Shown: positions 27,305 through 43,733 of the stretch, piece after piece
Position numbering within the stretch: position 1 is the first letter of the stretch
Layout of the letters: every line of letters begins with the position of its first letter
DNA from: Spirochaetota bacterium
Lineage (GTDB): Bacteria; Spirochaetota; Spirochaetia; Treponematales; UBA12059
NCBI GenBank assembly: GCA_022703505.1
Contig: JAKLDN010000001.1
Location: forward strand, 1-64,000
Direction of reading: 5' to 3'
DNA: 64,000 bases
Notes under the pieces: generated by a model
Seen by the model: the letters and a program-made list of their open reading frames with translations, nothing else
What the model was told of the DNA's origin: nothing
The model's database searches: none
Position numbers and translations under genes: made by a program

Positions 27305-28683
27305 TCGTGAAGAACGGACTCCTGGCCCTGCGCTACGAGCGGGACTTCCTGCGCCGGGACTTCCGGGTAGGCCCGGACGGGCGCGTGACGGAAATCGCCG
27401 AGACCCTGACCCCCCAGCCCGGGGAGGAGGTCCTGGACGCCCGGGGCCTTCAGGTCCTGCCCGGGGCCATCGATCCCCACGTCCACTTCGACGAGCCGGG
27501 CTTCACCCACCGGGAGGACTTCCTCCACGGCACCTCCGAGGCGGCCAAGGGAGGGGTGACCACGGTGGTGGACATGCCCTGCACCTCCCTGCCCCCGGTC
27601 ACCACCCGGGCGGCCCTGGAGAACAAACTCTCCTTCGTGTCCAAGGCCGCGGTGGTGGACTACGCCTTCTTCGGGGGGGTCTCCGGCCATACCGTGGAGG
27701 AAAGCCTATCGGAGCACATGGAGGCCCTGGCCCCGGAGGTGGTGGGCTTCAAGACCTACTTCATCTCCGGGATGAAGACCTTCACTCGGGTGACCCACGA
27801 CGACTTCGGGCGGATCGTCCGCCGCGGGGCGGCCCTGGGACGACCGATCCTCCTGCACGCCGAGGACCTGGATTGCGTTACCGCCGCGGAGGCCCGCCTG
27901 AGGAAGGCCCGGGGCGCGGAGGCCCCCCGGTGGAGCGACTACGTGGGCGCCCGGTCCGAGGATGCGGAGACCGTGGCCGCCGCCTCCGCCGCGACCCTGG
28001 CCCGGGGGAACGAGGCCTGGCTCCACGTGGTCCACGTGGGCACCGCCGAGGCCGCGGAGCTCCTGGCCGCGTCCGGGGCCACCTGCGAGACCTGCGCCCA
28101 CTACCTGGCCTTCTCCGCCGAGGACTTCGAGAGCCTAGGCTCCTCCCTCAAGACCGCCCCGCCCGTCAAGGCCCCGGGCCAGGCCGAGCGGCTCTGGGCC
28201 CTCCTTTCGGGCGGGGCCATCTCCTTCGTGACCAGCGACCACGCCCCGGCCCCGGAGGAGGAGAAGAACACCGGAGACCTCTGGACCGACTACGGGGGGA
28301 TCCCCGGGACCGGGACCTGGGCCCCCTTCCTCTACTCCGAGGGGCTCCTGGGCGGGCGCCTCTCCTTGAGCCGCTACCTGGACGTGACCGCCCGGGCCGC
28401 CGCGGAGCGGTACGGCCTTTCCGGCCGCAAGGGTTCCCTGGAGGCCGGGAAGGACGCGGACTTCATCCTGGCGGATCCCCGGGGGACCACGGTCGTCGAG
28501 GGCCGGACCCTCCTGTCCAAGGGGAAGATTACGGCCTTCGAGGGGATGCGCCTCTCCGGCCGCTTCCTCGCGACCTACGTCCGGGGACGCCTCGTGTACG
28601 ACGCGGCCCGGGCGGACCGAAACGAGCATCCGATTTGCGCCGCTCCGGGGAGCGGCAGATTCCTGCGTTGGGGGTACCGGTGA
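27301..28683 (+). CDS. Allantoinase/dihydropyrimidinase-type cyclic amidohydrolase
   Basis: A 460-residue binuclear-metal hydrolase opening cyclic ureides. The metal ligands are visible: DPHVHFDEPG, the carboxylated Lys in GFKTYF, LHAEDL, LHVVHVGTA and SDHAPAPEEEK. The DxHVHxxEPG form resembles allantoinase and dihydroorotase more than D-hydantoinase. In urate clusters this slot is filled by the hydantoinase-like HyuA, so the likely substrate is a cyclic ureide produced by the YgfK/SsnA step. Overlaps xdhB by 4 bases and ygfK by 4 bases (GTGA). Confidence 0.8.
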   Translation: MIVKNGLLALRYERDFLRRDFRVGPDGRVTEIAETLTPQPGEEVLDARGLQVLPGAIDPHVHFDEPGFTHREDFLHGTSEAAKGGVTTVVDMPCTSLPPVTTRAALENKLSFVSKAAVVDYAFFGGVSGHTVEESLSEHMEALAPEVVGFKTYFISGMKTFTRVTHDDFGRIVRRGAALGRPILLHAEDLDCVTAAEARLRKARGAEAPRWSDYVGARSEDAETVAAASAATLARGNEAWLHVVHVGTAEAAELLAASGATCETCAHYLAFSAEDFESLGSSLKTAPPVKAPGQAERLWALLSGGAISFVTSDHAPAPEEEKNTGDLWTDYGGIPGTGTWAPFLYSEGLLGGRLSLSRYLDVTARAAAERYGLSGRKGSLEAGKDADFILADPRGTTVVEGRTLLSKGKITAFEGMRLSGRFLATYVRGRLVYDAARADRNEHPICAAPGSGRFLRWGYR

Positions 28684-31600
28684 GCACGAGCAAGGTTATG
28701 GAAACCACGCCCATGGGGGCGCTGATCGGACGGATGGCCGGGGAGTACAAGGCCAAAAAGAGCGTCTACGACCTCCCGGAAGCCCTCTTCCGCAAGGTCT
28801 TCGAGGACGAGCCGGCCTCCCCGGGCTTCGAGGTCCTGGGAAGCCGCATCCTCTACCCGATCGGCCCCGCGGCGGGGCCCCACACCCAGATCGCCCCGAA
28901 CCTGGTCGCCTCCTACCTGGGAGGCTCCCGGATCTTCGAGCTCAAGACCGTCCAGGTGAACGACGCCCTCGAGATCGCCAAGCCCTGTATCGACGCCCTG
29001 GACGAGGGGCACAACGTGGAGTGGTCCACGGAGCTCTCGCTGGTCCAGGCCCGGGATGAGTACCTGCGGGGATTTATGGCCCTCCACGTGCTCAAGGCCC
29101 TCTTCGCGGAGAGGGGGGCCGGGGATTTCCTCTTCAACATGTCCGTGGGCTACACCCTGGAGGGTATAAAGAGCCCCACCATGGACGCCTTCATCGAGGG
29201 GATGCGGGCCCCCGCCTCCACCCCCTTCTGGGGCGCCGCCCTGGCGGAGCTCCGGGCCGCGGTGACCTCCCCCGCCTTTAGGGAGGCCTTCGGGGCCGAG
29301 GGGGCCGCCCGGGCTGCCGCGGCGGTCGATTCCATGCCGGCCGCGCCGGTCCACTCGGTGACCCTGTCCACCATGCACGGCTGTCCCCCCGCGGAGATCG
29401 AGCGGATCGGCCGCTACCTCATCGAGGAGAAGGGCTTCTCCACCTACATCAAGCTGAACCCCACCCTCCTGGGCTACGACCGGGTCCGGGAGATCCTGGA
29501 CCGGACCGGGTGGACGGACGTAGAAATACAGCGCCCGGGCTTCGAGCACGACCTGCAGTGGCCGGACGCCCTGGCCCTGATCACCTCCCTGGCCGCCGCG
29601 GCCAAACGGAAGGGGGTGCGCTTCGGCCTCAAGCTCTCGAACACCCTGGCCAACGTGAACGTGGGCGACCGCCTCCCCGGCCAGGAGCGCTACATGTCCG
29701 GCCGGGCCCTCTTCCCGATCACGGTCCGCCTGGCCGCCGACCTGGCCGCCGCGGTCCCCGGGCCCCTGCCCTTCTCCTTCTGCGGGGGCGTGTCCGCCCT
29801 GAACGCCGCGGACTGCGTCCGGGCGGGCCTGGGACCCCTGACCGTGGCCACGGACATCCTCAAGCCCGGCGGCTACCTCCGCCTGGCGGATATGGCCCGT
29901 TCGGCCGTCTCGGCCCTGCCCGCCGCCCCGAAGGGTCCGGACGCCCGGTCCCTGGCGGCCCTGGCGGAGGCGGCCCTGGGGCGCCCGGAGTTCCGGGGGG
30001 ACTGGAAGGAGGGCGAGGCGGCCATCGACGCGCCCCTGCCGGAGTTCGACTGCTTCGACGCCCCCTGCGTCCGGGCCTGTCCGGTGAACCAGAAGGTCCC
30101 CGAGTACATCCGCCTCTCGGCTCGAGGAAAGGACGAGGAGGCCCTGGCCCTGATCCTGGCGGACAACCCCCTTCCGTACATCACCGGCACCCTCTGCGAC
30201 CACGTCTGCCAGGAGGCCTGCTGCCGGAACGACTACGAAGGCCCCGTGGAGATCCGGGGGGTCAAGCTGGCCTGCGCCCGGGCCGCGGAGATTCCGCCCA
30301 AACCCCGGGCCCGGCGGAAAGATTTCCCGGGGAAAGCCGCGGTGATCGGCGCCGGACCCGCGGGACTGGCCTGCGCGTACTGGCTGGCCCGGGAAGGGGT
30401 TCCGGTCACGGTCTTCGAGAAGGCCGCCTCCCCCGGGGGCGTCCCCGCCAACGTGATCCCCCCCTTCCGGATCCCCCGGAAGGATATCGAGCGGGACATC
30501 GAGCGCATCCGGTCCATGGGCGTGGAGTTCCGCTTCGGCGCCGAGGTCCGGGATCTCGGGTCCCTGCGGGCGGACGGCTATTCGGCCGTCTTCGTGGGCG
30601 CGGGCTCCCCGGCCCCCCGGGATCTCCCCCTTACCGGCTCCGGAGTTCGCGTCGTGGACGCCCTGGAGTTCCTGGCCGAGACCGCCGAGGGCCCGGGTCC
30701 CTTCGCGGCCGTCCGGCACGTCGTGGTGGCCGGGGGCGGTAACACCGCCATGGACGCGGTCCGCGCGGCCTCCCGCATCCCCGGGATCCGGGAAGTCCGG
30801 CTTTCCTACCGCCGCACCGTCCGGGAGATGCCCGCGGACCGGGAGGAGCTCCACAACGCCCTGTCCGAGGCCTCCGCGGTTAACTCCGCGTCGGGCGCCG
30901 CGTCGCCCCCGACGGCCCTGATGGAACTGACCCTGCCGGAGTCCGCCGCTCCCGGCACGCTCACCCTGCGGCGTATGACCCTGGGAGAGCGGGACGCTTC
31001 CGGCCGCCGCTCCCCGGTTCCCTCCGGCGAGACCGTGGACGTGCCCTGCGACCTGGTGGTGGCCGCGGTCGGGGAGACCCCGGACCGCGCCTTCCTGGAG
31101 GCCCTGGGCGTACCGGTCGGTAAGGACGGCCGCCCGAAGGCAAACCTCGAGACCGGTTCCGTCGGCGTCCCGGGCCTCTACGTCGGCGGGGACGCCCTCC
31201 GGGGCCCGGCCTCCATCATCTCCGCCGTGGCGGACGGCCGGCGCAGCGCCGCGGCCATCCTCCGGGCCGCGGGGATCGAGCCCGAGGGCGCCTGGGGATC
31301 CTACGCCCCCCCCGCCCCGGATCGGGACAAGCTGGCCCGCCGGGGCTCCCAGGATCCGGCCGCCGCGGCACGGGAGGAGCTCCGGGTGCCCGAGGGTGCC
31401 GGTGCCAGAGCCTTCACGGCCGCCCAGGCGGAACGCTGCCTGGAGTGCGACGCGGCCTGCCTGCGCTGCGTGGAGGTCTGCCCCAACCGGGCCAACACCT
31501 TCGTGGCCGTGCCGACCGGCACCGGTTTCACACAAAGCCTACAGATCCTCCACGTGGACGCCCTGTGCAACGAGTGCGGCAACTGCGGATTCTTCTGCCC

Positions 31601-31895
31601 CTGGCGGGGGGAGCCCTACCGCGGCAAGCCCACGGTCTTCGCGTCCGCCGGGGCCCTGGAAGCCTCCCGGAACGCGGGCTTCGCCTTCACCGGGAAGGCC
31701 GGGGCCCCGGACCTGGTCCTCCGGGCGGAGTACGAGGGTGAGGTCCGGACCCTGCCCCACGCCGAGTGGGCCGTAGCATCGGCGGCTTCGGCGCCCGGCG
31801 CGGCAGGGCCCGCAGGAGCGGCGGCCCGGATGGCCGCCCTGGCCCGGATCGTGGGCCGGGAACATCCCTACCTCGCGGGAGGCGACGCATGCTGA
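28680..31895 (+). CDS. ygfK: YgfK-type flavin/iron-sulfur oxidoreductase
   Basis: A 1071-residue protein matching E. coli YgfK in order and motifs. The N-terminal dihydroorotate-dehydrogenase-like barrel includes YPIGPAAGPHTQIAPNL, IFELKTVQV and HNVEWSTELSL. A middle GltD-like domain has a Cys cluster (CFDAPCVRACPVNQKVPEY) and two dinucleotide sites (VIGAGPAGLACAY, VVAGGGNTAMDA). The C-terminus has ferredoxin cysteines (CLECDAACLRCVEVCP, CNECGNCGFFC). It is a putative reductase; in anaerobic urate clusters it is the expected ring-reducing enzyme, and the older label is selenate reductase. Start GTG 28680 (GGGGG upstream); ATG 28698 is an alternative. Confidence 0.92.
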   Translation: MSTSKVMETTPMGALIGRMAGEYKAKKSVYDLPEALFRKVFEDEPASPGFEVLGSRILYPIGPAAGPHTQIAPNLVASYLGGSRIFELKTVQVNDALEIAKPCIDALDEGHNVEWSTELSLVQARDEYLRGFMALHVLKALFAERGAGDFLFNMSVGYTLEGIKSPTMDAFIEGMRAPASTPFWGAALAELRAAVTSPAFREAFGAEGAARAAAAVDSMPAAPVHSVTLSTMHGCPPAEIERIGRYLIEEKGFSTYIKLNPTLLGYDRVREILDRTGWTDVEIQRPGFEHDLQWPDALALITSLAAAAKRKGVRFGLKLSNTLANVNVGDRLPGQERYMSGRALFPITVRLAADLAAAVPGPLPFSFCGGVSALNAADCVRAGLGPLTVATDILKPGGYLRLADMARSAVSALPAAPKGPDARSLAALAEAALGRPEFRGDWKEGEAAIDAPLPEFDCFDAPCVRACPVNQKVPEYIRLSARGKDEEALALILADNPLPYITGTLCDHVCQEACCRNDYEGPVEIRGVKLACARAAEIPPKPRARRKDFPGKAAVIGAGPAGLACAYWLAREGVPVTVFEKAASPGGVPANVIPPFRIPRKDIERDIERIRSMGVEFRFGAEVRDLGSLRADGYSAVFVGAGSPAPRDLPLTGSGVRVVDALEFLAETAEGPGPFAAVRHVVVAGGGNTAMDAVRAASRIPGIREVRLSYRRTVREMPADREELHNALSEASAVNSASGAASPPTALMELTLPESAAPGTLTLRRMTLGERDASGRRSPVPSGETVDVPCDLVVAAVGETPDRAFLEALGVPVGKDGRPKANLETGSVGVPGLYVGGDALRGPASIISAVADGRRSAAAILRAAGIEPEGAWGSYAPPAPDRDKLARRGSQDPAAAAREELRVPEGAGARAFTAAQAERCLECDAACLRCVEVCPNRANTFVAVPTGTGFTQSLQILHVDALCNECGNCGFFCPWRGEPYRGKPTVFASAGALEASRNAGFAFTGKAGAPDLVLRAEYEGEVRTLPHAEWAVASAASAPGAAGPAGAAARMAALARIVGREHPYLAGGDAC

Positions 31896-33220
31896 TCTTC
31901 GAGAACGTCCGAGTCATCACCTGGAACCCCGCCGCGGTCTCGGAACCTCGGGACGTGGTCCTCCGGGAGGCCGCCGAGGGCGGGACGGTGGCGGAGGCCG
32001 GGGCGAACCTGAAGGCCAAGTACCCCGCCGCGCGGGCCGCGGGCTCCGGGGGCTACCTTTCCCCGGGCCTCGTCTGCTCCCATACCCACCTCTACTCCGC
32101 CCTGGCCCGGGGCATCCTGGCCAACATCCGGCCCTCCAAGGACTTCGGGCAGATCCTGGCCCACCTCTGGTGGCGCCTGGACCGGGCCATCGACGAGCCG
32201 ATCCTCCGGGCCAGCGCCCGGGCGGGGCTGGCGGACGCGGCGGCCTGCGGGGTCACCTCCGTGGTGGACCACCACGCCTCCCCGGGCTTCATCGACGGGA
32301 GCCTGGACGTGATCCGGGCCGCCTACGACGAGATCGGACTTCGGGGCCTGGTGTGCTACGAGACCACGGACCGGAACGGGCTGGAGGGGGCCCGGGTGGG
32401 AGTCCGGGAGAACGAGCGCTTCGCCCGCGTCCTGGACGCCGAGCGGAAGGCCGGGAAGGCGCCCCGGGTGGAGGCCGCCATAGGAGGCCACGCCCTCTTC
32501 ACCATGGGGGACGAGACCCTGGAGCTCTCCGCCCAGGCGGTCCGGTCCACGGGCCGGGGCTTCCACGTCCACGCCGCGGAGGACAGGTACGACGCCTCGG
32601 ACTCCCGGCACCGCTACGGGGCGGACCTGGTCGAACGGATGGAGAAGTTCGGGCTCCTGGGGCCGAAGACCATCGTGGGCCACGGCCTGTGGCTCTCCCC
32701 CTCGGAGGTGGAGCTCCTGAACGAGCGGGACTGCTTCCTGGCCCACAACGCCCGGAGCAACATGAACAACGCCGTGGGCTACGCGTCCCTCCTGCCCGGC
32801 CTGAAAAATCCCGTCCTGGGGACCGACGGTATGGGGGCGGACATGGCGGAGGAGTTCAAGTTCGCCTACTTCCGCCACCGGGAGGCCGGGGGGCCCTGGT
32901 GGCCCGGGGACTTCCTGGGGGTCCTTGACCGGGGCAACCGTCTCATGGAACGATACATGGCTGGAACGCGCTTCGGCCGGGTGGAGCCCGGGTATCCCGC
33001 GGACCTGGTCCACTGGGACTACGATCCGCCCACGCCCCTGTCCGCGGAGAACCTGGCGGGCCACCTGGCCTTCGGGCTCTCCAGCCGGAGCGTGCGAACC
33101 GTCCTTTCCGACGGGGCCTTCGTCGTCCGGGACCGGGCGCCCGCCTTCGACGCGGCGGGGATCGCCGCGGACGGCCGCGTCCAGGCCGCCCGGCTCTGGA
33201 AGCGGATGGATACCTTGTAG
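31889..33220 (+). CDS. ssnA: SsnA-type aminohydrolase
   Basis: A 443-residue member of the amidohydrolase superfamily (cytosine-deaminase/atrazine-hydrolase branch). Motifs: GLVCSHTHLYSALARG, VVDHHASPGF, FHVHAAED, IVGHGLWLSPSEVE and LGTDGMGADM. The pair ygfK-ssnA is conserved in urate-degrading clusters and the product probably acts on the reduced purine ring. GGGAGG precedes the ATG, and it overlaps ygfK by 7 bases. A terminator-like stem follows, so this may end one transcriptional segment. Confidence 0.92.
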   Translation: MLIFENVRVITWNPAAVSEPRDVVLREAAEGGTVAEAGANLKAKYPAARAAGSGGYLSPGLVCSHTHLYSALARGILANIRPSKDFGQILAHLWWRLDRAIDEPILRASARAGLADAAACGVTSVVDHHASPGFIDGSLDVIRAAYDEIGLRGLVCYETTDRNGLEGARVGVRENERFARVLDAERKAGKAPRVEAAIGGHALFTMGDETLELSAQAVRSTGRGFHVHAAEDRYDASDSRHRYGADLVERMEKFGLLGPKTIVGHGLWLSPSEVELLNERDCFLAHNARSNMNNAVGYASLLPGLKNPVLGTDGMGADMAEEFKFAYFRHREAGGPWWPGDFLGVLDRGNRLMERYMAGTRFGRVEPGYPADLVHWDYDPPTPLSAENLAGHLAFGLSSRSVRTVLSDGAFVVRDRAPAFDAAGIAADGRVQAARLWKRMDTL

Positions 33221-33367: not shown

Positions 33368-34582
33368 ATGGACTCGAACGCCCAAAAGGTCCGCGCGAAG
33401 GCCTCGTCCTACCGGGACGAGACCGCGGACATCCTGTCCCGGATCATCCAGGTTCCGGCCCTGAGCGCCAAGGAGAAGGAGCGCATCGCCCTGCTCAAGT
33501 CGATGTGCGAGAAGGCCGGCTTCGACGAGGTCAAGGTGGACGGCCTGGGGAACCTCCTGGCCCGGGTGGGCTCGGGAAAGAAGATCCTGGCCGTCGACGC
33601 CCACATCGACACCGTGGACACCGGCGACCCGGCCCAGTGGAAGAACCCGCCCTTCTCGGGCCTCGTGGCCGACGGCCTCGTGCACGGCCGGGGCGCCTCG
33701 GACCAGCTGGGCGGGGCGGCTTCCATGATCACCGCGGGGCGCATCCTCAAGGAACTCGGCTACGCCGGGGACTATACGGTCTGGTTCGCCTTCACCATCA
33801 TGGAGGAGGACTGCGACGGCCTGTGCTGGAAGTACCTGATCGAGGAGGAAAAGCTCGTACCGGACCTCTTCGTGTCCACCGAGCCCACCTCCCTCCGCCT
33901 GTACCGCGGCCACCGGGGCCGCATGGAGATCGAGTGCCGCTTCCAGGGCGTGTCCTGCCACGGCTCCGCCCCGGAGCGCGGCAAGAGCGCGGCCTACATG
34001 GCCTCCCGGGCGGCCCTGGCGATCGAGAAGCTCAACGAGAACCTGAAGCCCGACACGGACAATTTCCTGGGCAAGGGCACCGTCACGGTCAGCCGCATGG
34101 ACGTGAAGGGTCCCTCCCTCTGCGCCGTCCCGGACCAGGGGATGATCTACCTGGACCGCCGCCTCACCTGGGGGGAGACCAAGGAGCTGGCGGTGGAGCA
34201 GGTCAAGAAGGCCCTCTCCGAGGCCGGACTGTCCAACTTCGAGGTCAAGGTCCCCTACTACGAGATCCCCTCCTGGAAGGGTACCAAGTACGGCCAGGAC
34301 CTCTACTTCCCGACCTGGAAGATCGACGCGGACCACGCCCTGGTCCGGGCCGGGGTGGCCGCCCACAAAGCCCTCTGGGGTTCCGAGCCCGTGGTCGACA
34401 AGTGGACCTTCTCCACGAACGGGGTGGCCGTGTGCGGGCGCCACAAGATCCCGACCATCGGCTTCGGACCCGGGGACGAGAACCAGGCCCACGCCCCCAA
34501 CGAGATCACCCGGGTGGACGACCTGGAGAAGGCAGCGGCCTTCTACGCTACCCTGCCCTACGCTCTGGAAGGGAAGCTCTAA
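33368..34582 (+). CDS. ygeY: YgeY-type M20 metallohydrolase
   Basis: A 404-residue zinc amidohydrolase of the M20 (ArgE/DapE) family. Metal ligands are seen in VDAHIDTVDTGD, GRGASDQLGGAAS, FTIMEEDCDGLC (the EE pair), VSTEPTSLRLY and the final GPGDENQAHAPNE. In urate clusters YgeY hydrolyses ureido compounds. ATG 33368 is chosen, with GGGGG 5 bases upstream; the frame is open 31 codons earlier across the terminator. Followed after 14 bases by the first PLP enzyme. Confidence 0.92.
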   Translation: MDSNAQKVRAKASSYRDETADILSRIIQVPALSAKEKERIALLKSMCEKAGFDEVKVDGLGNLLARVGSGKKILAVDAHIDTVDTGDPAQWKNPPFSGLVADGLVHGRGASDQLGGAASMITAGRILKELGYAGDYTVWFAFTIMEEDCDGLCWKYLIEEEKLVPDLFVSTEPTSLRLYRGHRGRMEIECRFQGVSCHGSAPERGKSAAYMASRAALAIEKLNENLKPDTDNFLGKGTVTVSRMDVKGPSLCAVPDQGMIYLDRRLTWGETKELAVEQVKKALSEAGLSNFEVKVPYYEIPSWKGTKYGQDLYFPTWKIDADHALVRAGVAAHKALWGSEPVVDKWTFSTNGVAVCGRHKIPTIGFGPGDENQAHAPNEITRVDDLEKAAAFYATLPYALEGKL

Positions 34583-34596
34583 TAAGGAGGAGCGGC

Positions 34597-35751
34597 ATGC
34601 GATGGTTCTACCGGTGCCCTACCTGCGGCGCCGAGTACGAGATGGAACCGGACCGCTACCTCTGCTCCTCCTGCGCCCCCAAGACGCTCCCGGACCGACC
34701 CCTGGAGGGGGTGCTGGAGTGCGCCTGGGCCGGCGTGTGGGAGGGGGATTCCCGCTCGGTGCCGCTCCCCGTGGAGCCCGAGTGGTTCCCCCCGGTGCCC
34801 GTGGGGGACACCCCCCTGTGGGCGCCGGAGCGGCTGCGCGCGGACACCGGTTTCAAAGGTCTCTGGATCAAGGACGACACCTGCCAGCCCACGGGCTCCT
34901 TCAAGGACCGGGCCAGCTTCCTGGTGGCCGCCTACGCCCGCAAGAAGGGCATCCGGGAGATAGCCCTGGCATCCACGGGCAACGCGGCCTCCTCCATGGC
35001 GGGCATCGGGGCGGCGGCGGGCTTGAAGATCACGGTCTTCCTGCCCAAGGCGGCTCCCGTCGCCAAGCGGATCCAGGTCCTACAGTACGGGGCGGAACTC
35101 AAGACGGTGGACGGCACCTACGACAAGGCCTTCGACGAGTCCCTGGCCTACACCAAGGCCACGGGGACCCTGTCCCGGAACACCGCCTACAATCCCCTGA
35201 CCATCGAGGGCAAGAAGACGGTCTCCTTCGAGATCCTCTCGGACCTCGCGGCCCGGGGAGCCCCGGCGCCGGACCACGTCTTCGTGCCCGTCGGGGACGG
35301 GGTGATCCTGGCGGGGGTCTACAAGGGCTTCGAGGACTTAGTCCGCCTGGGCCGCCTTTCCAAGGTGCCCGTGGTCTGGGCCTGCCAGGCCAAGGGGTCC
35401 AGCGCGATAGCCCGGGCCCTGTCTGCGGGAGGTTTCGGGGACCCCGAGCCCTCGGCCACGATCGCGGACTCCATCTCGGTGGACGTGCCTCGGAACGGGA
35501 CCCTGGCCCTGGCCAAGCTAACGAAGTATGGCGGCCGGGCGGTGGTGGTCACGGACGAGGAGATCCTGTCCGCCCAGCGGACCCTGGCCAGCGGGACCGG
35601 CCTCTTCGCCGAGCCCTCCTCCAGCGCCGCGGCGGCGGGATTCTTGAAGGTAAAGGGCGAGCTGGACCCGTCGTCGACGGTGGTCCTCCTCGTCACGGGC
35701 AGCGGACTCAAGGACGTGAAGAGCGCGGCCCACGGATTAGGGATAAGTTAA
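34597..35751 (+). CDS. Threonine-synthase-like PLP enzyme (fold type II)
   Basis: A 384-residue enzyme with an N-terminal zinc ribbon (CPTCGAEYEMEPDRYLCSSC) and the fold-type II PLP core. The Schiff-base Lys is in QPTGSFKDRAS, with ASTGNAASSMAGIGAAAGL, PVGDGVILAGVYKGF and TGSGLKDV. It is built like threonine synthase but lies in a purine cluster where YgeX (diaminopropionate ammonia-lyase, another fold-type II enzyme) is normally found. It may eliminate ammonia from 2,3-diaminopropionate or a ureido derivative; true threonine synthase is the alternative. AAGGAGG precedes the ATG by 6 bases. Confidence 0.82.
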   Translation: MRWFYRCPTCGAEYEMEPDRYLCSSCAPKTLPDRPLEGVLECAWAGVWEGDSRSVPLPVEPEWFPPVPVGDTPLWAPERLRADTGFKGLWIKDDTCQPTGSFKDRASFLVAAYARKKGIREIALASTGNAASSMAGIGAAAGLKITVFLPKAAPVAKRIQVLQYGAELKTVDGTYDKAFDESLAYTKATGTLSRNTAYNPLTIEGKKTVSFEILSDLAARGAPAPDHVFVPVGDGVILAGVYKGFEDLVRLGRLSKVPVVWACQAKGSSAIARALSAGGFGDPEPSATIADSISVDVPRNGTLALAKLTKYGGRAVVVTDEEILSAQRTLASGTGLFAEPSSSAAAAGFLKVKGELDPSSTVVLLVTGSGLKDVKSAAHGLGIS

Positions 35752-35871
35752 TTAGTGAATAGGTGAATGGGTAAATAGGGAGGATTGCGGAAACAGCGGG
35801 TATGCGTGCCGAACGCGCTCGTAAACCTGCCATCCGGTCCTATTCACTCATTCACGATTCACCAATTCACC
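35750..35871. repeat. Inverted repeat cassette 5 (TGAATAGGTGAATGG word)
   Basis: The left arm (35750-35779) has TTAGTGAATAGGTGAATGGG-type units starting at the stop codon of the previous gene. The right arm (35838-35871) has CCTATTCACTCATTCACGAT-type units. It lies between the two PLP-enzyme genes and ends directly before the binding site of the second. Confidence 0.78.
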
Positions 35872-35887
35872 TAAAAAGGAGCTACCC

Positions 35888-37351
35888 ATGAAGATCGATC
35901 TTTCCATCAACGAAGCCCAGCGGAAGAAGAACATACAGCGGTGCAAGGAAAAGGGCATCCTCCTGCCGACCTACGCCCAGATGCGGGATCCCAAGAAGAT
36001 CCCGGATTCCATCAAGGCCGACCTCAAGGGTATCGGCCTCTGGGATGTCCACTCCCGCAACCTCTTCCGGGTCAACTGGCACAACGAGCCCAAGGAGAAG
36101 GGCGGAGTCTTCGGGGACGTGAACTACTTCGAGCTCCCCCGGGAGCTCACGGGCACCAAAGCCCGGATCGGAGCGGTCCTCGGGAAGTGGTTCCCCACGG
36201 GTGCCCACAAGGTCGGCGCGGCCTACTCCTGCCTGGTCCCCGGGCTCGTGACCGGGCAATTCGACCCCACCACCAAGAAGGCCGTGTGGCCCTCCACGGG
36301 CAACTACTGCCGGGGCGGGGCCTACATCTCCCGCCTCCTGTCCTGCCCCTCCGTGGCCATCCTACCGGCCGAGATGTCCCGGGAGCGCTTCGAGTGGCTG
36401 GCGACCATGGCCGAGGAAGTCATCGCCACCCCGGGCTGCGAGAGCAACGTGAAGGAGATCTTCGACAAGTGCGTCGAGATCGAGAAGACCCGGCCGGACG
36501 CGGTGATCTTCAACCAGTTCGACCAGCTGCCCAACCACCTCTGGCACTACACCGTGACGGGTCCCGCCCTGGAGGAGGTCTACGGAAAGATGAACGCCGA
36601 CGGAAAGTCCCGCCTGGCCCTCTCCCTGTACAGCTCCGGCTCCGCGGGCACCCTGGGCGCGGGCTCCTACCTGAAGGAGAAGCACAACGGTGCCCGGGTG
36701 GGCGTGGGCGAGGCCCTGCAGTGCCCCACCATCCTGGAGAACGGCTTCGGGGGCCACCGGATCGAGGGGATCGGGGACAAGCACATCCCCTGGATCCACA
36801 ACCTCCGGGACACCGACGTGGCGGTGGGGGTGGACGACGAGATCACCGTCCGACTTCTGCGCCTGTTCAACGAGCCTGCGGGCCGCAGGGCCCTCGTGGA
36901 GGCCGGTGTGCCCCAGGCCGCCGTGGATCGGCTCGACCTTCTGGGGATCTCCGGGATCGGAAACCTCGTGGCCACCATCAAGGCCGCCAAGTACTACGAG
37001 CTGGGCGCGGACGAGATCGCCCTCACGGTCTTCACGGACTCCCTCCAGCTCTACGGCTCCCGGCTCAAGGAGCTCGCCGCGGAGCGGGGCCCCTACGACC
37101 AGCGCCAGGCGGACCGGGACCTCGAGATGCTTAAGAGCCTCTCGGTGGACTACGTCCTGGACATGACCCACACGGACCGCCGCCGGGTCCACCAGCTCAA
37201 GTACTACACCTGGATCGAGCAGCTCGGGAAGGACCTGGCCGAACTGAACGCCCAGTGGGACGACTGGCGCGGCTACTGGGGCGAGCTCCACGGCGAGGTC
37301 GGCGCCCTGGACGCCCTGATCGAGGACTTCAACAAGGAGGTCCTTCGGTGA
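35888..37351 (+). CDS. PLP-dependent fold-type II lyase, TrpB/cysteine-synthase-like
   Basis: A 487-residue protein, longer than cysteine synthase. The likely PLP Lys is in GAHKVGAAYSC (about 102), as in TrpB, followed by STGNYCRGGAYIS and SSGSAGTLGAGSYLK. EALQCPTILENGFGGHRIEG precedes a helical C-terminus. I do not know a characterised member; related genes are annotated only as PLP-dependent beta subunits. AAGGAG lies 6 bases before the ATG. It overlaps the next gene by 4 bases. Its place between YgeY and the 8-oxoguanine-deaminase-like gene makes it a candidate for the missing ammonia-lyase step. Confidence 0.8.
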   Translation: MKIDLSINEAQRKKNIQRCKEKGILLPTYAQMRDPKKIPDSIKADLKGIGLWDVHSRNLFRVNWHNEPKEKGGVFGDVNYFELPRELTGTKARIGAVLGKWFPTGAHKVGAAYSCLVPGLVTGQFDPTTKKAVWPSTGNYCRGGAYISRLLSCPSVAILPAEMSRERFEWLATMAEEVIATPGCESNVKEIFDKCVEIEKTRPDAVIFNQFDQLPNHLWHYTVTGPALEEVYGKMNADGKSRLALSLYSSGSAGTLGAGSYLKEKHNGARVGVGEALQCPTILENGFGGHRIEGIGDKHIPWIHNLRDTDVAVGVDDEITVRLLRLFNEPAGRRALVEAGVPQAAVDRLDLLGISGIGNLVATIKAAKYYELGADEIALTVFTDSLQLYGSRLKELAAERGPYDQRQADRDLEMLKSLSVDYVLDMTHTDRRRVHQLKYYTWIEQLGKDLAELNAQWDDWRGYWGELHGEVGALDALIEDFNKEVLR

Positions 37352-38727
37352 TCGTCCTCAAGGACTGTCTTTGCATCGTTCGCCCGCCGGGAAGCCCCGG
37401 CGGCAACCTGGCGGGGGCGGACGTCCACATCGACGGCAACCGGATCGTCCGGGTGGGGAAGAACCTGCCCGTGCCCGAGGGAACCCGGGTGATCGACGCC
37501 TCCCGCCACGTGGTGACCCCGGGCTTCGTGAACACCCACCACCACTTCTACCAGACCCTGACCCGGAACCTCCCGGCGGTGCAGAACGCCAAGCTCTTCG
37601 AGTGGCTCGTGTACCTCTACGAGGTCTGGAAGGGGATCGACGAGGAGGCGGTGTACTGGTCCAGCCGCCTGGCCCTGGCGGAGCTCGTGAAGACGGGCTG
37701 CACCTGCACCACGGACCACCACTACCTCTACCCCAGGGACTTTTCCCAGGACCTGCCGGGCATCCAGTTCCAAGCCGCCAGCGACATCGGGGTGCGATTC
37801 GCACCCACCCGGGGCTCCATGAGCCGGTCCAAGAAGGACGGGGGCCTGCCCCCGGACTCGGTGGTCCAGGACGAGGACACGATCCTGGCCCAGTGCGAGG
37901 AGACGATCCGGAAGTACCACGACCCCGCCCCGGACTCCATGCGCCGGGTGGCCCTGGCCCCCTGCAGCCCCTTCTCGGTGTCGGAGCAGCTCATGAAGGA
38001 CTCCGCGGTCCTGGCCCGGAAGTACGGCGCCCGGTTGCACACCCACCTGGCGGAGACCGGGGACGAGGACGACTACTGCGTGAAGATCTACAAGCGCCGT
38101 CCCCTCAAGGTCATGGAGGACTGCGGCTTCCTGGGCCCCGACGTCTGGTACGCCCACGGGATCCATTTCAACGACCAGGAACTCGACGTGCTGGCGCGGA
38201 CCGGGACCGGGGTAGCCCACTGCCCCTCCTCGAACATGCGTCTGGCCAGCGGGATCTGCCGGGTCCGGGAGATGCTGGACCGCGGCGTGAACGTGGGCCT
38301 GGCCGTGGACGGCTCGGCGTCCAACGACGCCTCGGACATGCTGGGTGAAATGCGGCAGGCCCTCCTGCTCCAGCGGGTGCGCTACGGCTCCGCGGGCATC
38401 ACCGCGCCGGAGGTCTACGGCATCGCCACCGAGGGCGGGGCCCGGATCCTGGGCTGGGACAGGCTGGGCCGGATCGAGGAAGGCTGGCTGGCGGACATCG
38501 CCCTCTTCGACGTGCAAAAGATGGAATACGCCGGGGCCCTCTCGGACCCGGCGGCGGCCCTCCTCTTCTCGGGCTACGACCACGGGGCGGACTACGTCTT
38601 CGTGAACGGCAAGGCCGCGGTGGTCCAGGGCCGGCTGGTCGGGGAGGACGAGGAGGAGATACGGGACAACGCCAACCGTATCGCAGCCAGGCTCTACGCG
38701 AAAGCGGGGGTGGCCGGATGGTCGTGA
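37348..38727 (+). CDS. 8-oxoguanine-deaminase-like amidohydrolase
   Basis: A 459-residue metal-dependent deaminase of the atrazine-hydrolase/8-oxoguanine deaminase group. Motifs are TPGFVNTHHHFYQTLTRNLP, TDHHYLYP, RLHTHLAET, YAHGIHFND, VAHCPSSNMRLASG and VDGSASNDASDMLGE. These closely match 8-oxoguanine deaminase, which yields urate. GTG start 37348 with AAGGAGG 7 bases upstream, overlapping the previous stop. It would feed urate into the pathway. Guanine deaminase or other aminohydrolase activity is possible. Confidence 0.85.
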   Translation: MIVLKDCLCIVRPPGSPGGNLAGADVHIDGNRIVRVGKNLPVPEGTRVIDASRHVVTPGFVNTHHHFYQTLTRNLPAVQNAKLFEWLVYLYEVWKGIDEEAVYWSSRLALAELVKTGCTCTTDHHYLYPRDFSQDLPGIQFQAASDIGVRFAPTRGSMSRSKKDGGLPPDSVVQDEDTILAQCEETIRKYHDPAPDSMRRVALAPCSPFSVSEQLMKDSAVLARKYGARLHTHLAETGDEDDYCVKIYKRRPLKVMEDCGFLGPDVWYAHGIHFNDQELDVLARTGTGVAHCPSSNMRLASGICRVREMLDRGVNVGLAVDGSASNDASDMLGEMRQALLLQRVRYGSAGITAPEVYGIATEGGARILGWDRLGRIEEGWLADIALFDVQKMEYAGALSDPAAALLFSGYDHGADYVFVNGKAAVVQGRLVGEDEEEIRDNANRIAARLYAKAGVAGWS

Positions 38728-39518
38728 AATACATACGTGCGGCCTCGCTGGACGAGGCCGACCGGGTCCTCGCGTCGGACAAGCGGGCGCGGATCCTGGC
38801 GGGGGGCACCCAGCTCCTGACCAGCGAGTTCCGGGACCGGGAGTTCGTGGCCGTCGACGCCGGGTCCCTCCTGCCCCGGGGCCTCGAGCGGACGGCCGAG
38901 GGCCTAACGCGCATCGGCGCCGGGGCGGTCTTCCAGGACCTGGCGGACAGCCCCGTCCCGTCCCGCATCCTCTCGGAGGCGGCCCTGGGCATGGCCAACC
39001 GGAACGTCCGGAACGCCGCCACCGTCGGGGGCAACCTGGGGGCCGCCCGCTCCTGTTCCTCCCTGGTTCCGGCCCTCCTCGTGCTGGACGCCCGGGTGCG
39101 GATCCACGGCGCGGCGGAAACCCGGCCCCTGGCGGACTGGCTGGCCGCGCCCTCGGGCATCGTGACCTGGATCGAGATCCCCGCCTCGCCGGGGCTCCGG
39201 GCGGCCTACGCCCGCTGGTCCCGGACGGCCTGCGACCTCTCGGTCCTGACCTGCGCAGCAAGCTACCGTCTGCAGGACGGTAGCTTGCGAGACGTACGTA
39301 TCGCCTGCGGGGGCCTGGACGCCCGGAGCCGCCGCTTTCCCGAGCTGGAACGCCTCTTCGAGGGGCGGCCCCTGCCCGGGCGGGACGAGGCGGCTGCGGC
39401 CGTCGCGCCCGCGCTCAAGCCGATCGACGACCTCCGGGGGAGCGCGGCCTTCAAGCGCCTGCGCGCCTCGGAACTCGTAGCCGAGGCCCTGCTCACGGCC
39501 CGGGAGGTAAGCCGATGA
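38718..39518 (+). CDS. ygfM: FAD-binding subunit of molybdenum hydroxylase (YgfM-like)
   Basis: A 266-residue flavoprotein of the CoxM/XdhC-FAD family. FAD contacts are seen in ILAGGTQLLTSEF and the MANRNVRNAATVGGNLGAA stretch (about 92-110), and the C-terminal CO-dehydrogenase flavoprotein domain ends in IDDLRGSAAFKRLRASEL. It lies directly before xdhD, as ygfM does in E. coli, and would pass electrons from XdhD to NAD or a carrier. Overlaps the upstream gene by 10 bases and xdhD by 4. The gene contains a perfect 13-bp hairpin. Confidence 0.87.
   Translation: MVVKYIRAASLDEADRVLASDKRARILAGGTQLLTSEFRDREFVAVDAGSLLPRGLERTAEGLTRIGAGAVFQDLADSPVPSRILSEAALGMANRNVRNAATVGGNLGAARSCSSLVPALLVLDARVRIHGAAETRPLADWLAAPSGIVTWIEIPASPGLRAAYARWSRTACDLSVLTCAASYRLQDGSLRDVRIACGGLDARSRRFPELERLFEGRPLPGRDEAAAAVAPALKPIDDLRGSAAFKRLRASELVAEALLTAREVSR
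39258..39288. repeat. Perfect 13-bp hairpin inside ygfM
   Basis: GCAAGCTACCGTC (39258-39270) and its exact complement (39276-39288) flank a 5-base loop. The reading frame passes through (AASYRLQDGSLRD). It resembles small palindromic repeats that insert in frame; one arm contains GGACGGTAG, a word also seen at 10086-10094. Confidence 0.75.
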
Positions 39519-42382
39519 CCGTCACCTTCAAGCTCAACGGCCGCCCCGTCTCCTGGGACTGCCCCGAGGGGGAGAGCCTCAAGGCCGCCCTGCGCCGCAA
39601 GGGGATCGTCTCCGTGCGGGACGGCTGCGACGGGGAAGGCTCCTGCGGCCTGTGCGCCGTCCTCCTGGACGGCCGCACCGTGAACTCCTGCACCCTCCTG
39701 GCCGCCCAGGCGGAGGGCCGGGAGATCTACACGGTCGAACACTTCTCCAAAGATCGGAAGCTTTCGGTGGTGCAGAGGGCCCTGATCGACGCGGCCTGCG
39801 TCCAGTGCGGCTACTGCACCCCCGCGGTGGTCCTGGCGGTGCACTCCCTCCTGGAGCGCTCCCCGGAGCCCACCAAGCAGGAGGTCAAGGACGCCCTCTC
39901 GGGCACCCTCTGCCGCTGCACCGGGTACGAGCAGTTCCACAACGCCGTGCGGATCGCCGCGAAACGCCTCAAGGACCCGGGCTACGCGGAGGCCGCGGCC
40001 CCGGAGTTCCGGCCGGACCTGCGCCACGTGGGCAAGGACCGGGAGAAGGTGGACGCCGCCGCCCTGGCCCGGGGGGAGAAGGCCTTCGTGGAGGACCGGG
40101 TCGACTCGGACGCCTGCCACCTGGCCCTGCTCACCAGTCCCCACGCCCACGCCTGGATCAAGAGCATCGACGCGTCCGCGGCCCTGGAGTTGCCCGGGGT
40201 CGTGGCGGTCCTCACCCACGAGAACTGCCCGGACCGGGTCTACACCACCGCGGGCCAGGGCTTCCCGGAACCCTCCCCCCACGACCAGAGGATGTTCTCC
40301 CGGAAGGTCCGCCACGTGGGGGACCGCGTCGCGGCCGTCCTGGCGGAGACCCCCGACCAGGCCCGGACCGCCCTCAAGGCTTTGAAGGTGGAGTACGAGG
40401 TCTTGAAGCCCGTGTTCTCCATCGCCGAGGCCCGGACCCCGGGCGCCCCGGTGGTCCACTCCGGGGAGGTCCGGTACGTTTCCGGGGAAGCCCCCGCGGG
40501 TACCTCCACCGCCGGGGACGGCCGGGACGACCCCGTCGTCTACCAGTTTCCCCTGCACGCGGACCCGCACCGCAACCTGGCGGCCAGCGTGGCCGACGGG
40601 ATCGGGGACGTCGAGAAGGGCTTCGCCGAGGCGGACGTGGTCGTCGAGCGGACCTACAAGGGCAACCGGGTGCAGTGCACCCCGATGGAGCCCCACGTGG
40701 TCTACGCCAAGGTCGACGGGGGCCGCCTGGTCCTCCACGCCTCCACCCAGGTGCCCTGGCACGTGCGCCGCATCGTCTCCCGCGCCGTCGGGATCCCCGA
40801 GAACAAGGTCCGGGTGATCAAGGAGCGGGTGGGCGGGGGCTTCGGGGCTAAGCAGGACATCGTCCTGGAGGACGTGGCCGGCTACCTGGCCTGGACCACG
40901 GGACGGCCCGTCTTCTTCCGCTACGACCGCGAGCAGGAGTTCATCTCCAGCCGGACCCGCCACCTGATGGAGATCACCGTCAAGCTGGGCGCCAAGAAGG
41001 ACGGCCGGCTCACCGCGGTGCTCATGAAGGTGGACGCGGACACGGGACCCTACGGCCAGCACTGCCTCACGGTGCCCATGAACGCCGTGTCCAAGAGCCT
41101 GCCCCTGGTGCTCTGCGACAACGCCCGCTTCGAGGTGAAGAGCTACTACACCAACCTCACCCCCGCGGGGGCCTACCAGGGCTACGGGGCCCCCAAGGGC
41201 TCCTTCGCCCTCCAGACCGCCCTGGCGGAGCTGGCCGCCGAACTCGGCATGGACCAGCTGGACCTGATCGAGCGCAACCGCGTCCGCTCCGGGAGCCGCA
41301 TCGAGATCCTGCGGAGCCTGGGGGAGGGCCGGCCCGGCGCCGCGGTCACCCTGGGGGAATGCGGCCTGGGGGAGATGATCGGACGCGGGCGGAAGGCCTT
41401 CGGCTGGGGCGGCGCCAAGCCCGCCACGGAGGACCCGGACTGGAAGGTCGGCCGCGGAGCGGTGATCGTCCAGCAGGGCTCGGGGCTGCCGGGCCTGGAC
41501 GCCGCCAACGCGGAGGTCCGCCTCCTGGCGGACGGCACGGTACTTCTGCTCTCGGGCGGTGCCGACCTGGGCACGGGCCTGGACACGGTGACAGCCAAGG
41601 CCGCCGCGGAGATCCTGGGCCTGGACATGGAGGACGTGGCGGTCATCTCCGGGGACACCGACGTGACCCCCTTCGACAAGGGCGCCTACGCCTCCAGCGG
41701 GACCTACTTCTCCGGGAACGCCGCGGTCAAGGCCGCGGAGGACCTGCGGGCCAAGGTCCTGGCCGCCGCCTCGGCGGTGCTCGGGGAACCCGTCTCGGAC
41801 CTCGCGATCGTCCACCGCGGCATCGTGCGCGGGAGGAAGGGCGAGGTGACCCTGGCCAAGCTGGCCCACATGAGCACCCAGGGGGAGCACCACGGGGACC
41901 TGGTCGGCATCGGGGGCTTCAAGACCGAGCACGCCGCCTTCCCCTACGGGGCCCACTTCGCGGAGGTGGCGGTCAACGTCCGCACCGGGGACGTGAAGCT
42001 TAGGCGCTTCCACGCCTACCAGGACTGCGGCACCCCGATCAACCCCGCCCTGGCGCTGGGACAGATCTACGGGGGCATCCTCAAGGCCGTGGGACACTCC
42101 CTCTACGAGGAGCTGCTCTACGACAAGGACGGGCGCTGCGTGAACCCGCGGTTCCTGGATTACAAGATCCCCACGATCTGGGAGGTTCCCGAGGACTTCC
42201 ACGTGGAGCTAGTTCCCGTGGCGGACGAGGTGGGACCCTTCGGGGGGAAGAGCGTTTCCGAGATCTCCCTGAACGGGGCGGCCCCCGCCATCTCCATCGC
42301 CATCCACGACGCCGTCGGCGTATGGATGCGCGAGTGGCCCTTCACCCCCGAGCGTATACTGAAGGCTCTCGGGAAAATCTAG
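39515..42382 (+). CDS. xdhD: XdhD-type molybdenum/iron-sulfur hydroxylase
   Basis: A 955-residue fusion of a 2Fe-2S domain (DGCDGEGSCGLCAVLL, CVQCGYCTPAVV, GTLCRCTGYEQF) with the molybdenum domain (GGGFGAKQDIVLE, GAYQGYGAPKG, GGADLGTGLDT, final SEISLNGAAPA). The layout and length match E. coli XdhD. Compared with XdhB in this window, the substrate-binding FRGFG Arg is replaced by Gln (YQGYG, about 555) and GQG by GTG, so it probably hydroxylates something other than xanthine or uses a different cofactor form. Selenium-dependent purine hydroxylase is a possibility raised for this family. Confidence 0.88.
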   Translation: MTVTFKLNGRPVSWDCPEGESLKAALRRKGIVSVRDGCDGEGSCGLCAVLLDGRTVNSCTLLAAQAEGREIYTVEHFSKDRKLSVVQRALIDAACVQCGYCTPAVVLAVHSLLERSPEPTKQEVKDALSGTLCRCTGYEQFHNAVRIAAKRLKDPGYAEAAAPEFRPDLRHVGKDREKVDAAALARGEKAFVEDRVDSDACHLALLTSPHAHAWIKSIDASAALELPGVVAVLTHENCPDRVYTTAGQGFPEPSPHDQRMFSRKVRHVGDRVAAVLAETPDQARTALKALKVEYEVLKPVFSIAEARTPGAPVVHSGEVRYVSGEAPAGTSTAGDGRDDPVVYQFPLHADPHRNLAASVADGIGDVEKGFAEADVVVERTYKGNRVQCTPMEPHVVYAKVDGGRLVLHASTQVPWHVRRIVSRAVGIPENKVRVIKERVGGGFGAKQDIVLEDVAGYLAWTTGRPVFFRYDREQEFISSRTRHLMEITVKLGAKKDGRLTAVLMKVDADTGPYGQHCLTVPMNAVSKSLPLVLCDNARFEVKSYYTNLTPAGAYQGYGAPKGSFALQTALAELAAELGMDQLDLIERNRVRSGSRIEILRSLGEGRPGAAVTLGECGLGEMIGRGRKAFGWGGAKPATEDPDWKVGRGAVIVQQGSGLPGLDAANAEVRLLADGTVLLLSGGADLGTGLDTVTAKAAAEILGLDMEDVAVISGDTDVTPFDKGAYASSGTYFSGNAAVKAAEDLRAKVLAAASAVLGEPVSDLAIVHRGIVRGRKGEVTLAKLAHMSTQGEHHGDLVGIGGFKTEHAAFPYGAHFAEVAVNVRTGDVKLRRFHAYQDCGTPINPALALGQIYGGILKAVGHSLYEELLYDKDGRCVNPRFLDYKIPTIWEVPEDFHVELVPVADEVGPFGGKSVSEISLNGAAPAISIAIHDAVGVWMREWPFTPERILKALGKI

Positions 42383-42539: not shown

Positions 42540-43733
42540 ATGAACCTGAACGAAATTCGCGCGCGCATCGAGACCCTGAAGAACCGCAAGATCGGCATGT
42601 ACCGCAAGGACTTCCTCCTGACCTGGGAGAAGACCCGGGACGAGATCGACGCCACCTTCGACGTGGCGGACATCCTCCGGGGCCTGCGGGACGCCGGGAT
42701 CAGCCCCCGGGTCTGGGACTCCGGCATCGCGGTGTCCAATTTCCGGGACAACTCCACCCGCACACGCTTCTCCTACTCCTCCGCCTGCGACCTGCTGGGC
42801 CTCTACGTCCAGGACCTGGACGAGGGCAAGAGCCAGATCGCCCACGGGGAGACCGTGCGGGAGACCGCCAACATGATCTCCTTCCTGACCGAGGCCATCG
42901 GCATCCGGGACGACATGTACCTGGGCGAGGGCGACAAGTACCAGCGGGAGGTCGGCAAGGCCCTGGACGACGGAGTGGCCGCGGGAGTCCTGCCGGACCG
43001 GCCCACGGTGGTGAACCTCCAGAGCGACATCGACCACCCCACCCAGTCCATGGCGGACTTCCTCCACCTGGCCCACCACTTCGGGGGCCTTTCCAAGCTC
43101 AAGGGCAAGAAGATCGCCATGACCTGGGCCTACTCCCCCTCCTACGGCAAGCCCCTCTCGGTGCCCCAGGGGATCATCGGCCTGGCCAGCCGCTTCGGCA
43201 TGGACATCACCCTGGCCCACCCCGAGGGCTACGACCTCATCCCCGAGGTGGTGGAGCTGTCCAAGAAGCAGGCCAAGGAATCCGGCGGCTCCTTCAAGCA
43301 CGTCAACTCCATGGACGAGGCCTTCCAGGGGGCGGACATCGTGTACCCCAAGAGCTGGGCCCCCTACGACGTCATGCTGAAGCGCGTCCCCCTCCTGCAC
43401 GCCGGGGACCAGGCGGGCCTCAAGGACCTGGAGAAGGCCTGCCTCGCGAACAACGCGAAGTTCCGGGACTGGGAGTGCACGGAACAGAAGATGAAGCTGA
43501 CCGCCGGGGGCAAGGCCCTGTACATGCACTGCCTGCCCGCGGACATCACGGACGTCTCCTGCAAGGCCGGCGAGGTGGCCGCCACCGTCTTCGACCGGTA
43601 TCGGGACGACACCTACCGGGAGGCCTCCTGGAAGCCCTACATCATCGCCGCCATGATCCTGCTCGGGAAGTTCCAGGACCCCGCCAAGGTCCTGGCGGGC
43701 CTGGTGGAGAGGAACCGGAAAAGAGTCGGTTAA
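42540..43733 (+). CDS. ygeW: YgeW-type knotted carbamoyltransferase
   Basis: A 397-residue transcarbamylase. The carbamoyl-phosphate site is FRDNSTRTRFSY, and HPTQSMADFLHLAHHF and MHCLPADITDVSC are the other two family motifs. The length and the opening NLNEIRARIETLKNRKIGMY match YgeW, the transferase of urate clusters thought to work backwards, phosphorolysing a diureido compound to carbamoyl phosphate. GGGAGG precedes the ATG. It is the last gene of the purine run, before a strong terminator. No carbamate kinase follows. Confidence 0.93.
   Translation: MNLNEIRARIETLKNRKIGMYRKDFLLTWEKTRDEIDATFDVADILRGLRDAGISPRVWDSGIAVSNFRDNSTRTRFSYSSACDLLGLYVQDLDEGKSQIAHGETVRETANMISFLTEAIGIRDDMYLGEGDKYQREVGKALDDGVAAGVLPDRPTVVNLQSDIDHPTQSMADFLHLAHHFGGLSKLKGKKIAMTWAYSPSYGKPLSVPQGIIGLASRFGMDITLAHPEGYDLIPEVVELSKKQAKESGGSFKHVNSMDEAFQGADIVYPKSWAPYDVMLKRVPLLHAGDQAGLKDLEKACLANNAKFRDWECTEQKMKLTAGGKALYMHCLPADITDVSCKAGEVAATVFDRYRDDTYREASWKPYIIAAMILLGKFQDPAKVLAGLVERNRKRVG

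Follow-up and report, generated by a model that had tools for sequence, protein, structure and literature searches.

It was not until 2025 that the reductive urate pathway was fully worked out, with its last step assigned to YgeX. In Escherichia coli, Clostridioides difficile and Clostridium sporogenes the pathway is encoded by clustered genes for XdhD-YgfM, YgfK/UacX, SsnA, HyuA, YgeW/UacY and YgeY, which lead to 2,3-diaminopropionate (DAP), and for YgeX. The E. coli pathway ends with a single DAP ammonia-lyase, YgeX (PMC12507026). Here we describe a urate cluster from a Spirochaetota bacterium, located in a window of 64,000 nucleotides (positions 1–64,000 of contig JAKLDN010000001.1, assembly GCA_022703505.1). 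The upstream enzymes leading to DAP and their clustering are alike in this locus, but YgeX is absent and two pyridoxal phosphate (PLP) enzymes, named A and B here, are encoded directly after ygeY. Gene order, the pairing of A with B and the absence of YgeX make it very probable that this is a YgeX-less ending of the pathway with a conserved enzyme pair. Such an ending is a new variant of an already known pathway, and a search of the accessible papers on urate clusters found no description of A or B.

Two PLP enzymes occupy the place of YgeX

Five proteins of the cluster, namely YgfK, SsnA, YgeY, XdhD and YgeW, pass their curated cut-offs, which identifies it as a reductive urate cluster. Homologues of HyuA and YgfM are in place with scores under their curated cut-offs, and the HyuA-like gene occupies the same position in syntenic relatives. 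YgeX (DpaL, TIGR01747) is a fold-type II PLP enzyme like A and B, and its place after ygeY is taken by A. Shine-Dalgarno-like sequences precede both A and B, and both enzymes retain their PLP lysine. The preliminary description of this locus, which had reported two intact PLP genes after ygeY in a urate cluster without YgeX, is borne out by the coordinates, the PLP lysines and the curated models.

It had named two findings that would refute its reading, a ygeX gene elsewhere in the genome or A being the only threonine synthase of the organism, and neither applies. A search of the whole genome (3.66 Mb, 98.5% complete) with TIGR01747 did not find YgeX, the top score of 22.7 bits (cut-off 274) belonging to A, and B is unmatched by this model. 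The genome contains six PALP genes, which encode A, B, CysK, TrpB, ThrC and a relative of BhcB/threonine ammonia-lyase. The canonical ThrC and CysK are encoded away from the urate cluster, which rules out A as the sole threonine synthase.

Distribution of A and B

A sample of 296 Spirochaetota genomes contains A and B in 28 genomes each, YgfK over its cut-off in 50 and YgeX in 38. A and B are found together in 26 genomes, and 26 of the 28 B genomes also contain YgfK. At genus level, where relatedness is not fully removed, A and B are common to 19 of the 21 genera having either (Fisher p 3e-21) and B and YgfK to 18 of 24 genera (Fisher p 7e-17). Among the 50 YgfK genomes, B is present without YgeX in 13, both are present in 13, YgeX without B in 21 and neither in 3.

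Gene positions add to this picture (loci and genomes are numbered with L and G, respectively). In the family holding most of the YgeX-only genomes, YgeX is encoded beside YgeY in the YgfK/urate cluster (L231). In relatives of the window and in G074 (L236) the place after YgeY is held by A. Most of the genomes containing both B and YgeX also contain A (11 of 13), and their YgeX-family gene is located outside the urate cluster among unrelated genes, although in G275 a distance of only some 3 kb separates it from A-B. Within the urate cluster, A and YgeX are therefore alternatives to one another, and A is almost always accompanied by B.

At least 586 B-encoding stretches are present in GTDB contigs, and the origins and 10-kb neighbourhoods given next are those of the best 80 of them. 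These records come from Spirochaetota, Betaproteobacteria, Deltaproteobacteria, Acidobacteria, Chloroflexi, Bipolaricaulota/Acetothermia, Halanaerobiales, Clostridia, Bacteroidetes, Ignavibacteria, Neomarinimicrobiota, Sumerlaeota, KSB1 and others. Halanaerobium kushneri and Anaerotignum sp. MSJ-24 are among the carriers of A-B. Within 10 kb of B, A is found at 47 of the 80 loci and YgeX at one. We also analysed 50 B genomes of other phyla. They are of unstated completeness and were selected for their resemblance to B, so that the figures apply to genomes with B and do not amount to an unbiased survey. A scores at least 363 bits in 46 of them while the remaining four peak at 254 or below, leaving a clear gap. 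SsnA is over its cut-off in 31 of these genomes and reaches at least 328 bits in 39, and YgeX is present in a single one. In G326, G339, G299 and G345 B lies apart, yet A adjoins SsnA elsewhere in the genome.

Several neighbouring genes recur at these loci. A glycosyltransferase-like gene (about 310–330 amino acids) lies between A and B in Chloroflexota (L132, L134, L142, L143, L144, L158 and L181), where B is often followed by a protein of 160–230 amino acids, the tested copy of which (L138) has no Pfam match. Just upstream of B, one Spirochaetota family (L048, L053, L056, L059, L060, L062 and L063) encodes a protein of 180–230 amino acids; the L048 copy, which was tested, matches DUF3320. 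The second-locus YgeX-family gene of A-B Spirochaetota genomes (L218–L226) is found near unrelated genes, for example a sugar-nucleotide epimerase.

Enzyme A resembles threonine synthase with an altered phosphate site

A is a protein of 384 amino acids with an N-terminal zinc ribbon of the type CxxC...CxxC (C7, C10, C23 and C26). Its PLP lysine is Lys103 within the motif PTGSFKDR. Structure comparison reveals the threonine-synthase fold along its full length (Z 48.5 and 41.9), and A shares with ThrC the fold, the PLP lysine and the Ser-Thr-Gly-Asn loop. B has this loop also, whereas that of YgeX is Thr-Asp-Gly-Asn. However, A remains under the cut-offs of the threonine-synthase models (189.6 vs 303 for NF006050 and 144.6 vs 167.1 for TIGR00260).

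The difference from ThrC lies in Arg160 and Asn188 of the Thermus threonine synthase, which we take to be phosphate-site residues. Both are replaced in A: the position of Asn188 is occupied by Asp (Asp234 in A) in 68 of 68 sequences, and that of Arg160 by Thr, Met or Leu and never by Arg in the same 68 sequences. A also carries invariant Arg194 and Lys206 at the positions of Val153 and Gln164 of the Thermus enzyme. Two ThrS-type paralogues (L287 and L294) retain both Arg160 and Asn188; these are the only clear ThrS-type controls, the other PALP paralogues being mixed subfamilies or wrong-strand reads. An acidic residue at the former Asn188 position would suit the cationic beta-amino group of DAP.

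Enzyme B carries the residues of a serine-forming hydroxyl lyase

B consists of 487 amino acids, with Lys108 as its PLP lysine in the motif TGAHK. The preliminary description had called it TrpB-like and the two enzymes unrelated-looking, and neither label holds. The best families and folds of B are those of CysK and cystathionine beta-synthase (CBS), its seven NCBIfam matches are all of the CysK/CBS type and the TrpB model is absent among them, which rules out B as a TrpB. A and B are distant relatives, as both carry PF00291. B is nevertheless far under the cysteine synthase cut-off (67.4 vs 350.95).

The closest solved structures to B are CysK, CBS and Fn1055 chains (Z 31 to 35). Fn1055 of Fusobacterium nucleatum (PDB 5b53 and 5z5c; Z 32.9 against B) forms L-serine from cysteine and water by beta-replacement (PMC9865163), and its key residues are Asp232, Ser74, Thr73 and Gln147 (PMC12940168); PDB 5b55 is its D232N mutant. 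Asp232 and Gln147 align with Asp297 and Gln210 of B, and the positions of Thr73 and Ser74 are occupied by Ser136 and Thr137, which are conservative changes. All four residues of B are invariant in 107 of 107 sequences, and the motif HRIEGI-x-D of B matches that of Fn1055. CysK and CBS resemble B in fold and active-site loops, but the position equivalent to 297 is Ala in CysK and Tyr in CBS. B also differs from Fn1055: identity is about 22%, B has extra N- and C-terminal regions and its presumed substrate is DAP instead of cysteine.

A and B in stand-alone modules

In L161 (genome G335) the genes for a TRAP transporter, YgeY, YgeW, A and B form a module. TRAP transporter genes likewise adjoin those for YgeY, a carbamoyltransferase, A and B in L118 and L122, and the genomes of L161 (G335) and L118 (G301) are without a clear SsnA. 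It is possible that these modules serve the scavenging of urate breakdown intermediates.

A different arrangement is found in two related betaproteobacterial genomes (L112 and L113). Here an RpiR-type regulator, TRAP genes and two carbamoyl-type hydrolases precede A, B and an L-serine ammonia-lyase, the start of which overlaps the stop codon of B at both loci. One hydrolase gene belongs to the allantoate-amidohydrolase/carbamoylase family and the other is N-carbamoylputrescine-amidase-like (nitrilase family). No clear SsnA or YgeX was found in the two genomes and no XdhD relative within 10 kb of the loci. This gene content points to the uptake and utilization of a ureido compound. Because A and B are kept together with other hydrolases that would remove ureido groups, they can be placed after ureido removal. 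The serine lyase of L112/L113 and the Fn1055-type residues of B are two independent pointers to serine.

Proposed pathway and alternative explanations

As in E. coli, XdhD, YgfK, SsnA, the HyuA-like enzyme, YgeW and YgeY would carry urate to DAP, and A and B would take the place of YgeX as terminal enzymes. B would form 2-aminoacrylate on the PLP bound to Lys108, with the beta-amino group leaving as ammonia, and the invariant Asp297 would add water to give L-serine, making B a beta-replacing hydroxyl lyase. L-serine could then be converted to pyruvate by a serine ammonia-lyase. A would act on DAP too, most likely as a YgeX-like deaminating enzyme or as a handler of the D isomer while B takes the L isomer; alternatively, it might convert D- to L-DAP and so feed B. 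According to a commentary (PMC12990295), the intermediates of the pathway presumably have the R configuration, and one may speculate that two enzymes differing in stereochemistry are present on that account.

Gene order, co-occurrence, the lack of YgeX, the folds and the conserved residues are observations; DAP as the substrate of both enzymes and serine as the product of B we infer. Judged from the sequences, it is somewhat more likely than not that A and B close a variant of the reductive urate pathway that has no YgeX and in which B gives L-serine. For the formation of serine from DAP by B as such, the chances appear about even. Somewhat more tentative, and a little short of even, is the wider proposal of a urate branch present in many phyla and ending in serine, in which B would convert DAP and water to L-serine and ammonia and A would be a threonine synthase that has been neofunctionalised towards DAP. 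The preliminary description had supposed that A and B share or split the terminal deamination, which fits these findings; a serine-forming hydroxyl lyase role for B is a proposal that it did not contain.

A and B both, or B alone, could instead be plain DAP ammonia-lyases yielding pyruvate and ammonia, with Asp234 of A and Asp297 of B binding the beta-ammonium group of DAP. Both enzymes have indeed gained an invariant Asp near the pocket of the beta-substituent, A stands in the position of YgeX and a serine enzyme is absent from the cluster of the window. Against this stand the serine ammonia-lyase gene that comes immediately after B in L112/L113, overlapping it, and the HRIEGI-x-D motif that B shares with Fn1055, whose Asp232 is key to serine formation, and we regard this explanation as unlikely. 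An earlier role of the pair, on ureido intermediates such as albizziin or 3-amino-2-ureidopropionate, had also been considered in the preliminary description; it is improbable, as is some other linked function, for instance providing the molybdenum hydroxylases with sulfur or selenium. YgeY and the carbamoyltransferase are usually retained with A and B, and L112/L113 keep the pair where other hydrolases stand for YgeW and YgeY and no XdhD relative was found within 10 kb. These points outweigh the presence of XdhD and maturation-like genes in the clusters and the continuing debate over the order in which ureido groups are removed (PMC12990295).

A sulfur relay, with A forming cysteine out of DAP plus sulfide and B, as a true cysteine hydroxyl lyase, converting cysteine and water to serine and sulfide, would fit the likeness of B to cysteine (hydroxyl) lyase, and enzymes with sulfur nucleophiles (CapA1 and CapA2) occur among CysK-like and threonine-synthase-like folds. 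The relay would require catalytic sulfide, and two genomes combine B with a cluster-encoded YgeX in the absence of A; such a relay is quite improbable. That A and B are a threonine synthase and a cysteine synthase of the usual biosynthetic kind, lying in the cluster by chance, is hardly credible: the folds match, but canonical ThrC and CysK are encoded elsewhere, A lies under all threonine-synthase cut-offs without Arg160 and Asn188, B scores far under the CysK cut-off and the pair co-occurs with the urate pathway across phyla.

Several observations weigh against a serine-forming ending with A and B in place of YgeX. The preliminary description had suggested that A and B stand in for YgeX and had looked for mutual exclusion with ygeX. 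The substitution agrees with the gene order, with the pairing in 26 of 28 genomes of the phylum and 46 of 50 outside it, and with the absence of YgeX from the genome of the window and from 49 of the 50. However, strict genome-wide exclusion of B and YgeX is ruled out by the 13 of 50 YgfK genomes with both, and the expected exclusion holds only in part. Two of these genomes, G008 and G021, which belong to one family and are without A, have a divergent YgeX inside the urate cluster in addition to B, so that B cannot be regarded as just one half of a replacement for YgeX. If A alone deaminates DAP, the need for B is unexplained.

The serine step meets difficulties of its own. Loop residues 294–298 of B, which hold Asp297, have a predicted local distance difference test score (pLDDT) under 50 and are the only low-confidence part of the model. 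A tree, for which a fragment of Fn1055 was used, does not support Fn1055 as the sister of B but groups it with CysK/CBS and leaves B on a separate long branch, so that Asp297 is either old or convergent. A general link of serine ammonia-lyase to A and B is ruled out, L112 and L113 being the only such cases among 107 loci. In the genome of the window, SdaA is encoded about 38 kb beyond ygeW without urate neighbours. The alpha subunit of serine dehydratase is present in only 18 of the 26 genomes with B and YgfK; its enrichment in B genomes (18 of 28 vs 65 of 268 others) is modest, and serine dehydratase occurs in the YgeX family as well.

The ending described here is common, since the 50 sampled B genomes outside Spirochaetota are nearly all without YgeX and most have SsnA. 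In one published survey YgeX was called from a PF00291 domain close to SsnA (PMC12507026), and such a survey could not tell A and B from YgeX because they carry the same domain. Identification of the A/B ending would therefore change the list of organisms regarded as urate degraders, and two enzyme activities would be gained. If serine is the end product, purine breakdown would be tied to serine and one-carbon metabolism.

Organization of the cluster and neighbouring genes

The genes of the cluster and an upstream purine entry gene are listed in Table 1.

Table 1. Coordinates of genes in and near the urate cluster, with scores against curated models.
Gene product	Position	Strand	Model, score and cut-off (bits)
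Adenine deaminase, purine entry gene upstream	19470..21188	+	TIGR01178, 598.2 (cut-off 472.5)
Xanthine dehydrogenase small subunit-like	23679..25091	+	TIGR02963, 326.9 (below cut-off 467)
Xanthine dehydrogenase molybdopterin subunit-like (start approximate)	25085..27304	+	TIGR02965, 701.1 (below cut-off 849.5)
HyuA-like cyclic amidohydrolase (hydantoinase/allantoinase family; ATG at 27301)	27301..28683	+	TIGR03178, 315.2 (below cut-off 357.85)
YgfK (yanthine reductase; start approximate)	28692..31895	+	TIGR03315, 1039.6 (cut-off 835.3)
SsnA	31889..33220	+	TIGR03314, 480.6 (cut-off 455.5)
YgeY	33368..34582	+	TIGR03526, 483.1 (cut-off 321.5)
Enzyme A, PLP enzyme of threonine-synthase fold; zinc ribbon at the N terminus; in place of ygeX	34597..35751	+	
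Enzyme B, PLP enzyme of CysK/CBS fold, extended at both termini; predicted hydroxyl lyase forming serine	35888..37351	+	
8-oxoguanine deaminase-family amidohydrolase	37348..38727	+	NF006055, 601.4 (cut-off 532)
YgfM-like FAD subunit	38718..39518	+	TIGR03312, 91.8 (below cut-off 241.5)
XdhD (urate reductase)	39515..42382	+	TIGR03313, 1224.2 (cut-off 1101.9)
YgeW carbamoyltransferase	42540..43733	+	TIGR03316, 655.9 (cut-off 500)

The GTG start of the 8-oxoguanine deaminase-family gene overlaps the stop of B, and this gene stays beside B in several relatives. Its adjoining position suggests that 8-oxoguanine would feed the urate pathway. The gap between A and B (35747–35873) contains a palindromic element rich in GTGAAT. 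It has some 50 partial matches genome-wide and resembles a dispersed repeat of the repetitive extragenic palindrome (REP) or miniature inverted-repeat transposable element (MITE) type.

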